NCBI GenBank assembly: GCA_029782135.1
Contig: JAKOVI010000161.1
Coordinates: forward strand, 1-45,601
Source of the DNA: Bacillota bacterium
GTDB taxonomy: Bacteria; Bacillota; UBA4882; UBA10575
Direction of reading: 5' to 3'
Length of the DNA: 45,601 nt
Shown: piece by piece, positions 4,102 through 45,601 of the stretch
Layout of the letters: each line of letters opens with the position of its first letter
Numbering within the stretch: the first letter of the stretch is position 1
The notes under the pieces: generated by a model
What the model was told of the DNA's origin: nothing
Databases searched by the model: none
Seen by the model: the letters and a program-made list of their open reading frames with translations, nothing else
Translations under genes and position numbers: made by a program

Positions 4102-5007
4102 TTGAAGAAGTTACCTGGTACGCAAAGAAATTCGTTGTTCGTTCTCTTCTTTCTTCTCATCATGGTCATCAGCAACAGTTCCACCGGCGCGGGGAAGTAT
4201 CCATTGGTCATCCGGGACCAATTTGGCCGTCCCGTGATGATCAATAGCCTGCCGCAACGGATCGTTTCGGGTTCGCCCGGCAACACGGAACTCCTTTTTG
4301 CCTTGGGATTGGGGGAACGGGTGGTGGGGGTCACCGATTGGTGCGACTTTCCGCCGGCGGCCAAAAGCAAAGCGCGGATCGGCAGTATCGCCCCATTGAA
4401 CATCGAAAAGGTGTTGTCGCTCCGGCCCGATCTGGTCCTGGCCTGTAATTTAAACGGCAAAGAACCGGTGGAAAAACTGACGGAACTGGGGGTTCCCACC
4501 TTTGCCCTTAACCCGGTCTCCTTTGCGGAGATTATCGAGGCGGTCAGCCTGGTCGGTCAGATCACCGGCCAAGAGGAGCAGGCGGCCGAACTGGCAGCGA
4601 CTTTTACGCGTACGCTGGACCAGGTAAAACAGAAAGGGCAAACAATGGGGAGACCGATGAAGGTCTTCATTGCGATCGGCGACGATTTACAGGACCTGTG
4701 GACCGCCGGCCGCGGGACTTTTCTGGATGAAGCGGTCGCGCTGTGCGGGGGAGAGAATATTGCCGCCGGGCTTGGTTTCAGCTGGGGACGCCTGGGAATG
4801 GAATATATCTTGAAAATGGATCCCGATCTGATCCTGACTGAACTTGACCCCCAAGTTTTTTTGGCGGATCCCTTTTTCCGTGCGTTGACGGCCGGGCGCA
4901 AACGCCAGATCTATCAGATTGATGTTGACCTCTTTTCGCGGCCGGGGCCGCGCTTACTTGAGGCTTTAAACGAGTTGGTTCAGATTTTTGAGCAGGTGGC
5001 CAGATGA
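4102..5007 (+). CDS. Cobalamin/siderophore-type ABC transporter substrate-binding protein (BtuF/FecB-like)
   Basis: A 301-residue periplasmic-binding protein of the helical-backbone class that captures corrinoids, haem or ferric siderophores and hands them to a BtuC/FecD permease. Residues 10-28 form a hydrophobic export signal. The mature part starts with the family pattern DQFGRPV and then RIVSGSPGNTELLFALGLG. There is no lipobox cysteine after the signal helix, so the protein should be soluble and secreted rather than lipid-anchored. That is unusual for a monoderm Bacillota importer but normal for a periplasm. The start is TTG 4102 with GGAGG (4088-4092) 9 nt upstream. Its stop overlaps the permease start (ATGA). 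The ligand cannot be read from the sequence. Confidence 0.85.
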   Translation: MKKLPGTQRNSLFVLFFLLIMVISNSSTGAGKYPLVIRDQFGRPVMINSLPQRIVSGSPGNTELLFALGLGERVVGVTDWCDFPPAAKSKARIGSIAPLNIEKVLSLRPDLVLACNLNGKEPVEKLTELGVPTFALNPVSFAEIIEAVSLVGQITGQEEQAAELAATFTRTLDQVKQKGQTMGRPMKVFIAIGDDLQDLWTAGRGTFLDEAVALCGGENIAAGLGFSWGRLGMEYILKMDPDLILTELDPQVFLADPFFRALTAGRKRQIYQIDVDLFSRPGPRLLEALNELVQIFEQVAR

Positions 5008-6074
5008 ATGTGAAAATGACGAAGCGATCTTGCCCGGTTCAACGGAGACCATTATCCTTCTGGCTGGCGGTTTTAGTGCTGCTGTTGGTCTTCCTGTCCT
5101 GCGCCGCGTTGGCCTTGGGCCCCGCCCGGCTGAGCGTGGCCAATGTCCTGCAGGCGATCCTCGGCTCAACTCCCTTGGGGAAGCGTTTTTTCCCCGGGGA
5201 AATTGATCCCCTTACCCAAAAGATCCTCTTCGAATTAAGGCTTCCCCGGATCATCCTTGCCATCCTGGTGGGCGCCGCCCTTGCCGTGGCCGGGGTTGTT
5301 TTTCAGGGTCTTTTCCGCAATCCACTGGCCGACCCCTATATCTTAGGGGCTTCCTCCGGCGCGGCTTTCGGGGCGGCGATCGCACTGGTCTCAGGTTCCA
5401 GGCTGCTTCTTTTCGGACTGGGTGCCCGTCCGCTCTTCGCCTTTGCCGGCACCTTGCTGACGACGGTCCTGGTGTACCGGATTACCGGGAAAAGCGGGCG
5501 TTCTTCCATTACGACTTTACTCCTTGCGGGGATTGCTGTCAGTGCGTTTATCTCCGCGTTGACCACCCTCCTGCTCTACTTTTACCAGGAAGAACTGGGA
5601 AGGGTCATCTTCTGGACGCTCGGCGGTTTTTCCTATACCCGCTGGGGGGAAGTGCAAGTTGTCTTGCCCTATCTCATTTCCGGTTTTGCCTTGGCCTACC
5701 GGTATGTCCGGGAACTCAACCTTCTTTTATTAGGTGAGGAGAAAGCCCACCAACTTGGCTTGGATGTTGTGAGGCTGCAAAGATCTTTATTGTTTGCCGC
5801 CTCCTTGCTCGTTGCGGCGGCGGTCAGTGTCGCCGGCACGATCGGCTTTGTCGGTCTGGTTGTTCCGCATGTCATGCGCTTGTTGTTGGGTCCGGACCAT
5901 CGTTCTCTCCTTCCCTTATCGGCCTTGGCCGGCGGAGTCTTTCTCCTGGCCGCCGATACTCTGGCCCGGATGCTCCTCGCCCCGGTTGAACTGCCGGTCG
6001 GGATTTTAACCTCTTTTGTCGGGGGCCCCTTCTTCCTCTATTTATTACGGAATAACCGGAGGATCATGCATTGA
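5004..6074 (+). CDS. FecCD/BtuC-family ABC transporter permease
   Basis: A 356-residue integral membrane protein with about ten hydrophobic helices, the transmembrane half of a vitamin B12/iron-complex importer. Family features include LRLPRIILAILVGAALAVAGVV near residue 75, the GLGxxxGASSGA-type segment (ILGASSGAAFGAA), and the C-terminal GFVGLVVPHVMRLLLGPDH segment that contacts the ATPase. The start overlaps the binding-protein stop by 4 nt (ATGA at 5004-5007), implying translational coupling; the local SD is weak. The ATPase follows 16 nt downstream, so the three genes form one operon. Confidence 0.93.
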   Translation: MNVKMTKRSCPVQRRPLSFWLAVLVLLLVFLSCAALALGPARLSVANVLQAILGSTPLGKRFFPGEIDPLTQKILFELRLPRIILAILVGAALAVAGVVFQGLFRNPLADPYILGASSGAAFGAAIALVSGSRLLLFGLGARPLFAFAGTLLTTVLVYRITGKSGRSSITTLLLAGIAVSAFISALTTLLLYFYQEELGRVIFWTLGGFSYTRWGEVQVVLPYLISGFALAYRYVRELNLLLLGEEKAHQLGLDVVRLQRSLLFAASLLVAAAVSVAGTIGFVGLVVPHVMRLLLGPDHRSLLPLSALAGGVFLLAADTLARMLLAPVELPVGILTSFVGGPFFLYLLRNNRRIMH

Positions 6075-6090
6075 AAGGTAGGTTACCAAC

Positions 6091-6963
6091 GTGTTTTTAA
6101 GTAACTTGCTGTCTTCCAAGTTCAAGGCAACCGGAGATGAAATGGTGAAACCGGAGGATGATTGCCCGGAAATTGAGCTGCAAGAGGTCTCATTTGCCTA
6201 TGGGGAAGAAACAATCCTTTCCCGGATCAGTTTTACCGTGCCGAAGCGGGGTTTTACCGGCCTGATCGGGCCGAACGGCTCCGGGAAGACTACCTTGCTT
6301 AAATGTCTGGACAAGACCTTGACGCCGACTGCCGGCCGGATTTTGCTGGCAGGAAAGGATTTAATGCAGATTGACCTGAAAACGCTGGCACGGATGGTCG
6401 GGGTGGTTCCGCAGCAATGGGAGGTTGATTTTGCCTTTTCGGTGTGGGAAATCGTGATGATGGGGCGTTATCCTTTTCTTTCCCCTTTTGCCAGGGAAAG
6501 CAGGGAAGACCGGGCGATTGGGCGTGCGGCAATGGAAGCCACCAACACCTTGGCCTTCGCCGACCGGCCGGTTACCGAGTTGAGCGGGGGCGAACGGCAA
6601 CGGGTCCTGGTGGCGCAAGCCCTGGCGCAGAAACCTGAATTACTCCTGCTGGACGAACCAACTTCCCACCTTGATATCAATCATACCCTGGAACTCTGTG
6701 AATTATTAAAAAAGCTCCAGCGGAGTGAGAACTTAACCATCCTGGCGGTCTTTCATGACCTGAATCTGGCTGCCCGGTACTGCGATCAGCTGGTCTTGTT
6801 GAACGAGGGGAAAGTATATGCCTGCGGTGCGCCGGAGCAGGTGCTGAGCACGGAAAACCTCGAAGCGGTTTTTGGCGTTCGGGTCCGGCTCCGGCCGGAG
6901 ACGGAGACGGGACGGCCCACGATCATCTTTTTGCCGAAAACAGAGCCGGAGGTTGAAAGTTAA
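6091..6963 (+). CDS. ABC transporter ATP-binding protein (BtuD/FecE-like)
   Basis: A 290-residue ATPase that powers the importer. Walker A is GPNGSGKTT (from residue 60), the signature is LSGGERQ, Walker B is LLLLDEPTSHLD and the H-loop is VFHDLN. Sequence similarity is to the iron-siderophore/cobalamin importer ATPases. GTG 6091 has AAAGGTAGG upstream and is used here. An in-frame ATG at 6142, with GGAG 5 nt upstream, would remove 17 residues that are atypical for the family and is a real alternative. It is the last gene of the importer operon; the rpsB promoter begins 9 bp after its stop. Confidence 0.93.
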   Translation: MFLSNLLSSKFKATGDEMVKPEDDCPEIELQEVSFAYGEETILSRISFTVPKRGFTGLIGPNGSGKTTLLKCLDKTLTPTAGRILLAGKDLMQIDLKTLARMVGVVPQQWEVDFAFSVWEIVMMGRYPFLSPFARESREDRAIGRAAMEATNTLAFADRPVTELSGGERQRVLVAQALAQKPELLLLDEPTSHLDINHTLELCELLKKLQRSENLTILAVFHDLNLAARYCDQLVLLNEGKVYACGAPEQVLSTENLEAVFGVRVRLRPETETGRPTIIFLPKTEPEVES

Positions 6964-44086: not shown

Positions 44087-44704
44087 ATGTGGCAAGTTTT
44101 TTTAAGCGGCGGTCCGGTGATGTATCCTCTGTTATTATGTTCGGTACTTGTGTTGACCATTACGATTGAGCGGCTTTGGTATTTTCTCAGCCAGCGTGGT
44201 GATCTTGATGAAATTAGAAGAATCGTTTTTCGTTTAATGGATAAGGATGCTCCTCTGGAAGCAATTCAATATTTGCAAAAGATAAATCAACCGGTAGCCC
44301 GGATGTATCAGGCTGCTTTGTTATATTACGGGAAAGAGCGGGCCCAGATTGAGGCCAGCCTGCGTGACGCTGGTGAACTGGAGATTAAGAAGATGGAGCG
44401 GGGTTTGGGACTGCTTGATGTGATTATCACTGCTGCTCCTCTGCTCGGCTTGTTGGGAACCGTGACGGGAATTATTGACAGCTTTAACATTCTTGCCGTG
44501 GCGCAAGGTTTGCCCTCAGCGACCGAACTCAGCCGGGGAATTGCCGAAGCCCTGATCACGACGGCGTTTGGTTTAATGATCGCCATTCCTTCCCTCTTCC
44601 TGATGCACTGGCTCAACCGGATGATTGATAAGAACCTGACCAACATGAACCAAATGAGCAAAGAGTTTCTGGAGAACTACGGAAACAGGGGTGAACAATC
44701 GTGA
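44087..44704 (+). CDS. exbB: ExbB/TolQ/MotA-family proton channel protein
   Basis: 205 residues with three hydrophobic helices (about 8-28, 110-135 and 155-178). The pore motif PLLGLLGTVTGIIDSFN in the second helix is diagnostic. With ExbD it forms the inner-membrane proton channel that drives TonB. GGAGG (44074-44078) is 8 nt before the ATG. The stop overlaps exbD by one base. TolQ is an alternative name, but the tonB gene that follows supports ExbB. Confidence 0.93.
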   Translation: MWQVFLSGGPVMYPLLLCSVLVLTITIERLWYFLSQRGDLDEIRRIVFRLMDKDAPLEAIQYLQKINQPVARMYQAALLYYGKERAQIEASLRDAGELEIKKMERGLGLLDVIITAAPLLGLLGTVTGIIDSFNILAVAQGLPSATELSRGIAEALITTAFGLMIAIPSLFLMHWLNRMIDKNLTNMNQMSKEFLENYGNRGEQS

Positions 44705-45108
44705 TGTTCAGCCGGAAAGCAAAAATACCCCGTTTGGATATTGTCCCCCTGATCGATCTGACCTTCTTTATCATGGTTTTCTTTATGTACTCGATGACAT
44801 TCAAAACGGCGGTTTCCGGGGTTCCGCTGAATCTGCCATCGTCCAGCCAGGCCGTCAGTCTGGAACGAAACCGGATTGTTGTAACGATCGACCAGAAGGA
44901 GACGGTCTATTACGGCGCCGAGCCAGTTACCCTTGAGCAACTGACCAGGACCCTGGCGCCGTTAGCGAGCAAAGACCCCAACTTGTTAGTGATCATTAAT
45001 GCCGACACAAAAGTCAGTTATGGGAAAGTAATCTCCGTGATGGATGCGATCACCGAAGCCGGGGTCTCCCAACCGGCCTTCGGGGTGGAAAGGAAGAATA
45101 AGCGCTAA
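44704..45108 (+). CDS. exbD: ExbD/TolR-family protein
   Basis: 134 residues. One membrane helix (about 13-32) carries the essential Asp in PRLDIVPLIDLTFFIMVFF; the rest is the periplasmic TolR/ExbD domain (VVTIDQKETVYYG to VMDAITEAGVSQPAF). It carries protons together with ExbB. ATG 44704 overlaps the exbB stop (TGATG); GTG 44701 would add one residue. Confidence 0.93.
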   Translation: MFSRKAKIPRLDIVPLIDLTFFIMVFFMYSMTFKTAVSGVPLNLPSSSQAVSLERNRIVVTIDQKETVYYGAEPVTLEQLTRTLAPLASKDPNLLVIINADTKVSYGKVISVMDAITEAGVSQPAFGVERKNKR

Positions 45109-45140
45109 ACAGGAGGGCGTCCCGCGAGGAGGTTTCGACG

Positions 45141-45601
45141 ATGAACAAGCCCCGCTCCGGAGATTTAAATAGATTGGCCGGCTCTTTCCTGCTGGCCGTG
45201 GTATTGCATGCCCTCCTTTTTCTGTTGCAGATTAACGGAATCTGGGGAGCGCGCGGGGGCAGCCTTGAATACACATTAATTCATCCGCGGGTGATCGAGC
45301 TCGAACCGGCGCAAACCGTGGCGCCAAAAGCAGAAGCGAAGGTTACCCCGGCGGAAAATCCGCCGGCACCGCCGAAACCACCGGCGCCGGAGAAACCACC
45401 CGCCCGGCCAACGGAAGAAGCCGTCGCACAACTCAGAGAGGTTCACCAGGAACAACCGGCGGCGCGGGAAACAAAAGCCGAACAAGAAGAGCCGGTGACG
45501 ACCAGGCCGGAAGAGCCGGACCCGGCTGCGGACGCGACGGAGAGCGGTGAAGTCCAGGCTGTCCAAGCACCGGCGGAACCGGCTTTACCACCTTTGGGGA
45601 C
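45141..45601 (+). CDS. tonB: TonB energy transducer, 3' end cut by the window
   Basis: The visible 153 residues begin MNKPRSGDLNRLAGSF, followed by the membrane helix LLAVVLHALLFLLQI (residues 18-32) with the conserved His of TonB (H23) and then a long Pro/Glu/Ala-rich linker (PPAPPKPPAPEKPPARP) that spans the periplasm. The C-terminal receptor-binding domain is beyond the window. GAGGAGG (45126-45132) is 8 nt before the ATG. It follows exbB-exbD as one operon. TonB contacts outer-membrane receptors, so it implies an outer membrane. Confidence 0.9.
   Translation, partial: MNKPRSGDLNRLAGSFLLAVVLHALLFLLQINGIWGARGGSLEYTLIHPRVIELEPAQTVAPKAEAKVTPAENPPAPPKPPAPEKPPARPTEEAVAQLREVHQEQPAARETKAEQEEPVTTRPEEPDPAADATESGEVQAVQAPAEPALPPLG

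Follow-up and report, generated by a model that had tools for sequence, protein, structure and literature searches.

What does a TonB system do in a member of the Bacillota? The window (the whole stretch of DNA analysed, 45,601 nt) ends in an apparent exbB-exbD-tonB operon. TonB systems serve outer-membrane receptors, and most Bacillota lack an outer membrane. The first-pass annotation had therefore pointed either to a diderm lineage or to a TonB system with another role. Our results favour the two readings together.

An ExbB-ExbD-TonB operon at the end of the window

The matches of exbB to PF01618 (MotA_ExbB; E 2.8e-30) and of exbD to PF02472 (E 5.8e-27) lie far outside chance, and ExbD homologues were recovered from 32 of the 41 relatives searched, the window's own genome included. 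The third reading frame encodes a membrane helix with a central conserved His, followed by a Pro/Glu-rich linker. On its own this part matched no Pfam family, and its NCBIfam match was weak (tolA_full, 28.1 bits vs a cut-off of 59.45). Over the shared portion, however, it is 72% identical to a complete gene of 268 aa in a genome of the same genus (G001), and because the C-terminus of that gene matches TonB_C (E 2.8e-13), we identify the third frame by homology as tonB. TonB_C is present in 19/21 aligned rows, the cut row of the window being among the 21. The Pfam matches and the homology to G001 thus uphold the annotation of exbB, exbD and the TonB helix with its Pro-rich linker as one operon.

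In NCBIfam, the top matches of exbB were tolQ (89.5 bits; cut-off 221) and exbB (66.4 bits), both below the curated cut-offs, and exbD scored 64.3 bits for tolR, below the cut-off of 127.3. These scores fail to separate Tol from Ton; a canonical Ton system of this genome likewise has its higher scores for tolQ/tolR. Elsewhere the window carries a BtuF/BtuC/BtuD-like ABC transporter, whose BtuF-like binding protein has a signal segment and, by eye, no lipobox Cys, as would be usual for an unanchored periplasmic protein of a diderm. Coordinates are collected in Table 1.

Table 1. Location of the operon genes and of other features mentioned in the text. Locations are window positions or the genome, contig or locus handle.
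Feature	Location	Strand	Description
exbB	44087..44704	+	205 aa, MotA/TolQ/ExbB-family proton channel; gene 1 of the five-gene operon
exbD	44701..45108	+	135 aa, ExbD/TolR-family stator; 4-base overlap with exbB
tonB, 5' part	45141..45601	+	153 aa, no stop; gene cut by contig end
ABC transporter	4102-6963	+	BtuF/BtuC/BtuD-like
X, window's genome	C134:203-2116		719-aa frame; E 9.7e-249
Receptor N-terminal part	G000:C88:1-650 (L057)		Plug match, contig edge
Second tonB-exbB-exbD set	G000:C149:20-1867 (L001/L056)		start of contig
Gene beside receptor-tonB operon	L149:65-1153 (G003)		DUF4892 + OmpA domain, divergent
Cell-wall hydrolase	L078:8617-9225		PF07486, directly 3' of S
Cell-wall hydrolase	L080:8684-9268		PF07486, directly 3' of S
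X N-terminal domain	G202:C1:395145-396296		Omp85-negative genome
X N-terminal domain	G176:C1:360325-361452		Omp85-negative genome
X N-terminal domain	G205:C74		Omp85-negative genome
X N-terminal domain	G180:C164		Omp85-negative genome
X N-terminal domain	G039:C29		Omp85-negative genome
S-like protein	L157:1348-2052 (G000:C51)		234 aa, stand-alone

The window is an entire contig (C48) of a 2.38-Mb genome assembled in 163 contigs and 96.6% complete, so tonB is cut by the contig end. Another contig of this genome, C134, begins with the final ~20 codons of tonB (L141), and comparison with G001 indicates a gap of ~280 bp between the two contigs, in which ~94 codons are absent. The first-pass annotation had advised looking past position 45601 for the TonB C-terminal domain. 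The last codons are on C134, while the domain itself, as judged from the G001 gene, falls inside the gap; PF03544 matches only the other TonB of the genome, on C149. Beyond the end of tonB, C134 encodes a protein that we call X and then one of 225 aa that we call S, followed, by eye, by a small Cys-rich protein gene, plsX, fabD, fabG, acpP and fabF. In G001, exbB, exbD, the complete tonB, X (702 aa, secreted) and S (231 aa, SLH) form one operon.

A conserved five-gene unit

The complete unit is exbB-exbD-tonB-X-S. In a five-protein profile search, all five were found together in each of the 20 neighbourhoods fetched from relatives at the level of family, order, class and phylum, with S running off the contig in one. 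A scan for X covered 84,980 named prokaryote species and found 120 encoding stretches, 80 of which were listed. The carriers among the matches listed are Limnochordia and Hydrogenispora MAGs, Halanaerobium, Halanaerobacter, Frackibacter, UBP13 and other Bacillota. Wherever the contig has room, the gene order is intact in 80/80 of the listed loci: 66 have the plain arrangement, one differs in an over-long start of TonB, and contig ends truncate the other 13. Median gaps in the 67 complete loci are -8, 15, 6 and 0 bp, and 266/268 gene pairs lie <=150 bp apart. The 20 neighbourhoods and the 80 loci share genomes and are not independent. Alignments drew on 51 of 80 X proteins, 32 of 77 S proteins (mostly the shorter ones) and, in two other cases, 18 of the 20 neighbourhoods. 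A chance or contaminant origin of the operon was rejected on its recurrence in the 20 neighbourhoods and the 80 listed loci.

The TonB of the unit has a helix with the His in 71/71 cases and a Ser at position -4 in 57. A strict ExbD motif fails in 5/71; by eye, four of these have the Asp in a variant motif, and the fifth has a wrong ORF start.

The operon in relation to the outer membrane

A single row of genes on contig C17 encodes BamA (cut), OmpH, LpxD, LptF/G and two LptD_N proteins (LptA/LptD_N), and two further Omp85 proteins are encoded on C142 and C119. By its gene content, then, the genome is that of a diderm Bacillota, the first of the two readings originally offered. Of the genes suggested at that stage as a check, BamA, LptD_N and a receptor plug are present; a barrel-bearing OmpM with an SLH domain gave no match above threshold in this genome. 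The first-pass annotation would have been contradicted by a genome with no BamA, receptor or LPS/OmpM genes; BamA, LpxD and a receptor plug were found. Contig C142 also carries a porin-like piece (L059) with weak SlpA_C and Porin_4 matches. A horizontal copy from a Gram-negative bacterium is not supported, the genome having a full outer-membrane cluster.

Across 199 genomes of the phylum, Omp85 was detected in 49 and full-length X in 45, all of them among the 49, and full-length X was found in 0/150 Omp85-negative genomes; a Fisher test on such counts takes no account of how closely the genomes are related. Weak, partial-span X matches (19/199 genomes), some of them in Omp85-negative genomes, are excluded from the count of 45. 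The four Omp85-positive genomes without X (G056, G168 and G197 of family f33, and G097 of f64), which may be Negativicutes, all have receptors, up to eight.

A separate, receptor-linked Ton system

The window's genome contains one Plug match, the N-terminal part of a receptor at the edge of contig C88, and its contig C149 opens with a further tonB-exbB-exbD set. In G001 (L146) and five other family members, receptor, tonB, exbB and exbD form one operon (6/7 examined); in the seventh (L152), only a cut exbD is visible. The ExbD proteins of the receptor-linked operon form a separate clade with support of 100/98. The ExbD tree took in 70 of the 80 loci, the rest being without exbD or failing the length filter, and, having few columns and long E. 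coli branches, was used only for this clade of seven receptor-linked ExbD. A divergent gene beside the receptor-tonB operon in L149 encodes a protein with DUF4892 and an OmpA domain, and L150 (G008) is alike by eye.

Among the 199 genomes, Plug was found in 19 and the receptor barrel in 16, all within the Omp85 set. A receptor is carried by 15/45 X genomes, and the other 30 gave no match to either PF07715 (Plug) or PF00593 (barrel), three of them being single-contig assemblies (G174, G200 and G213). In these 30, TonB_C was found only on the contig of X in 20 genomes, gave no passing match in nine and was found twice in one (G218). The unit is thus judged to track the outer membrane and not receptors, because all 45 X genomes are Omp85-positive, 30 of them are receptorless, and the four Omp85-positive genomes without X all bear receptors.

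Another account would be an ordinary Ton import operon whose receptor is merely unlinked. There is one receptor in the window's genome, and tonB genes are often unlinked from receptors according to the accessible text of PMC12204202. Nevertheless, the family of that receptor has its own tonB-exbB-exbD operon, with its own ExbD clade, and two-thirds of the genomes with the unit have no receptor match. Because of these receptorless genomes and the separate receptor-bearing Ton system, we rejected an ordinary import system; it is largely refuted and, in our estimate, very unlikely. The other suggestion made from the window, a TonB system with another role, is therefore very probably right.

Protein X: a predicted binding module with a cohesin-like end

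X is a secreted protein of ~700 aa composed of a mutarotase-like β-sandwich, Ig-like domains and a cohesin-like end. A hydrophobic signal segment is present in 79/79 members with a start; a lipobox-like string occurs in 12/79, and most members have none. Searches of Pfam with 18 X proteins returned partial matches to the CARDB, NEW3 and cohesin families (PF00963 in 11/18). An AlphaFold2 model built from 51 sequences had a mean pLDDT of 90.0 and a pTM of 0.82. Residues 45-321 of the model align with galactose mutarotase 3mwx (Z 17.0, 213 residues, rmsd 2.8), and in fold this N-terminal domain resembles galactose mutarotases as well as the sandwich domains found in glycoside phosphorylases (Z 15-17). 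Residues 552-692 align with cohesin 2xdh (Z 15.2, 129 residues, rmsd 2.5), and type II cohesins are also found by sequence with the X profile (E 1.3e-14; 3l8q). Foldseek with the whole of X returned only long Ig-like chains such as integrins, an effect of common arrangement, and was not used.

The invariant residues of X are concentrated in the N-terminal domain, and none of the columns conserved fully or almost fully across the 51 sequences holds a His. Galactose mutarotase catalysis relies on His residues. Mutarotase chemistry is thus unlikely for X, and we read its N-terminal domain as a putative binding module. The same domain also occurs in Omp85-negative genomes, there as part of large proteins (frames of 608-2248 aa; Table 1).

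A carbohydrate-type fold beside a complete set of Ton proteins, TonB_C domain included, could suggest an unusual form of import, in which TonB would energise a plug-less outer-membrane channel and X, located in the periplasm or at the surface, would bind carbohydrate and pass the substrate on. However, none of the 80 listed loci (of 120 found) has a channel gene as an operon member, and what always follows X, given room, is a wall-binding SLH protein. The operon is, moreover, near-universal in these diderms regardless of lifestyle, whereas receptors are patchy (15/45). We consider such import fairly unlikely.

The motor could instead serve wall remodelling or envelope sensing, using X to work on glycans of the wall or a cell-wall hydrolase, with S as the anchor. 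This would suit the carbohydrate-type fold of X as well as the PF07486 cell-wall hydrolase gene that lies directly 3' of S in Halanaerobiales (L078, L080). It is quite improbable, however, since the hydrolase is not in the operon in the window's family, where S is followed by the Cys-rich gene and plsX-fabD-fabG, and the invariant residues of X, without His, make mutarotase chemistry unlikely. By eye, L075 and L124 resemble L078 and L080 in having a PF07486-type hydrolase gene 3' of S, with one further gene in between in L075.

The cohesin-like end of X, together with an SLH protein, evokes cellulosome anchoring, so X and S might form a surface scaffold, with ExbBD-TonB powering export or movement. 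Such surface display or secretion is highly unlikely in our judgement: full X is missing from every one of the 150 Omp85-negative genomes and, to our knowledge, the cellulosome anchors of monoderms work without a motor. The cohesin-like C-terminus of X (fold Z ~14-15) also differs from the type II cohesins of cellulosome scaffolds in being part of a motor operon and in being confined here to Omp85-positive genomes.

Protein S: an OmpM-type SLH domain without a predicted barrel

S combines an OmpM-type SLH domain, found in 32/32 members scanned, with a coiled coil and a short hydrophobic C-terminus. The predicted model (pLDDT 87.3, pTM 0.47) is all-helical, with one long helix at 108-225 and no strand from which a β-barrel could be built. 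Its SLH region best fits the SLH domain of OmpM1, 8bz2 (Z 9.0, 77 residues, rmsd 3.1, 40% identity); the next row in this second-look alignment was unrelated and scored 7.2. Against PDB sequences, the S profile matched Deinococcus SlpA (1.4e-23) and Veillonella OmpM (1.5e-23) best, and the S-layer protein Sap at 3.7e-10. A W-A/T-Y motif is present in 74/77 S proteins at the position of OmpM W34/Y36, and Y36 is reported as a mark of OmpM in diderm Firmicutes in the accessible part of PMC10628300. A strict cut found a hydrophobic 17-mer within the last 40 residues of 65/76 complete S proteins, vs 2/444 interior stretches; the tails of the other 11 are shorter, yet hydrophobic by eye.

S therefore resembles the OmpM/SlpA tethers in SLH type (E ~1e-23), coiled coil and W-x-Y motif, but differs in ending in a short hydrophobic segment where they have a β-barrel. 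Matched by description, Thermotoga OmpA1 (Ompα) also has an N-terminal SLH domain, a long coiled coil and a hydrophobic C-terminus, although its gene sits beside the porin gene ompB, and the accessible text of PMC3387000 mentions no motor operon.

A Tol-Pal-like arrangement of unrelated parts

Like TolQ-TolR-TolA-TolB-Pal, and in the operon order of E. coli, the unit encodes two motor proteins, a TonB/TolA-like arm, a soluble exported protein and a wall-binding tether. The parts differ. X has a β-sandwich/Ig/cohesin fold and no TolB_N, S has an SLH domain and a hydrophobic tail where Pal has an OmpA domain and a lipid, and exbB and exbD fall below the TolQ/TolR equivalog cut-offs. TolB_N (PF04052) was detected in 0/199 genomes of the phylum with a profile that matches the E. 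coli control. The search for a Pal-type protein was read in the window's genome, where the only OmpA-domain match is MotB beside MotA; phylum-wide, OmpA-domain profiling is uninformative, with MotB-like matches everywhere. By membership, as far as its sequences tell, the operon is not Tol-Pal, but in layout it is strikingly alike. With the Ton system it shares the MotA_ExbB and ExbD domains, TonB_C and a helix of the Ser-x3-His type, and it differs in its fixed linkage to X and S and in the many genomes that have it with no receptor. PorE of Bacteroidota has likewise been put forward, in the accessible text of PMC12204202, as a Tol-Pal-like tether distinct from classical tol-pal, but it is a CpoB-TolB-Pal fusion, with domains unrelated to those of the unit.

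We propose, with about even confidence, that the five-gene operon works like Tol-Pal, as a proton-driven system for tethering the outer membrane that uses a non-homologous adaptor and tether. Proton flow through ExbB-ExbD would move the TonB-like arm through the wall, where its C-terminal domain would engage X, a soluble periplasmic adaptor; X, once engaged, would bind or release S. S would grip the wall by its OmpM-type SLH domain and anchor its short C-terminal helix in a membrane. In line with the proposal for Thermotoga OmpA1, this is most likely the outer membrane, although such a helix would also fit the inner one. S may thus be a mobile, barrel-less OmpM tether that lost the barrel making OmpM immobile, so that S would be to OmpM as Pal is to OmpA. 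The motor might then concentrate or reset S tethers, for example where the cell divides, and thereby make the outer membrane follow the constricting wall. The weakest steps of this mechanism are the membrane assigned to S and the direct contact between TonB and X.

The parallel was built on layout and co-occurrence, the operon having, by our analysis, neither a TolB-like propeller nor a Pal-like lipoprotein, and several observations run against it. Ompα-like and OmpM tethers elsewhere operate motor-free. The predicted resemblance of the X N-terminal domain to carbohydrate-active folds would suit glycan handling equally. The N-terminal stretch of X, which might be the site of a TolB-like TonB-binding segment, is flexible and short in many members (median of 22 residues from the signal helix to the first conserved Asn). 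Finally, a third of the X genomes (15/45) do have a receptor.

More generally, and with slightly less than even confidence, we suggest that diderm Bacillota, beyond those with only classical Ton, carry a general proton-driven machine for tethering and constriction whose origin is independent of Tol-Pal. A TonB paralogue would have captured a barrel-less OmpM (S) through the adaptor X, mirroring the origin proposed for TolA/Pal in Gracilicutes. The accessible text of PMC12204202 (2025) argues that Pal owed its usefulness to being a mobile lipoprotein in place of an immobile OmpA-like barrel, and it reports Tol-Pal solely in Gracilicutes and, within diderm Firmicutes, detected Ton systems in Negativicutes alone. 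Antunes 2016 (PMC5007114) notes that the outer-membrane cluster in Halanaerobiales includes SLH proteins, and ExbB, ExbD and TonB go unmentioned in its accessible text. A full-text literature search, with Taib 2020 and Witwinowski 2022 outside its coverage, found no paper joining ExbB with SLH and Tol-Pal in diderm Firmicutes, TonB with ExbD in Halanaerobium, or OmpM with ExbD. Within the literature searched, a conserved motor-plus-tether operon of diderm Bacillota has apparently not been described so far.

On the Terrabacteria side of the bacterial tree, the means by which outer membranes lacking Pal, Lpp or TolB are anchored to the wall and divided is an open question. If our reading is correct, the operon of Limnochordia-like bacteria and Halanaerobiales, which tracks Omp85 almost one to one, would fill this gap in tethering, and it would represent a second origin of force-driven outer-membrane tethering.

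S proteins range in length from 198 to 1447 aa (median 266), mostly through variation in the middle part, as though each lineage had adjusted the length of its tether. A second S-like protein, encoded by a stand-alone gene on contig C51 of the window's genome (Table 1), also consists of an SLH domain, a coiled coil and a hydrophobic tail.
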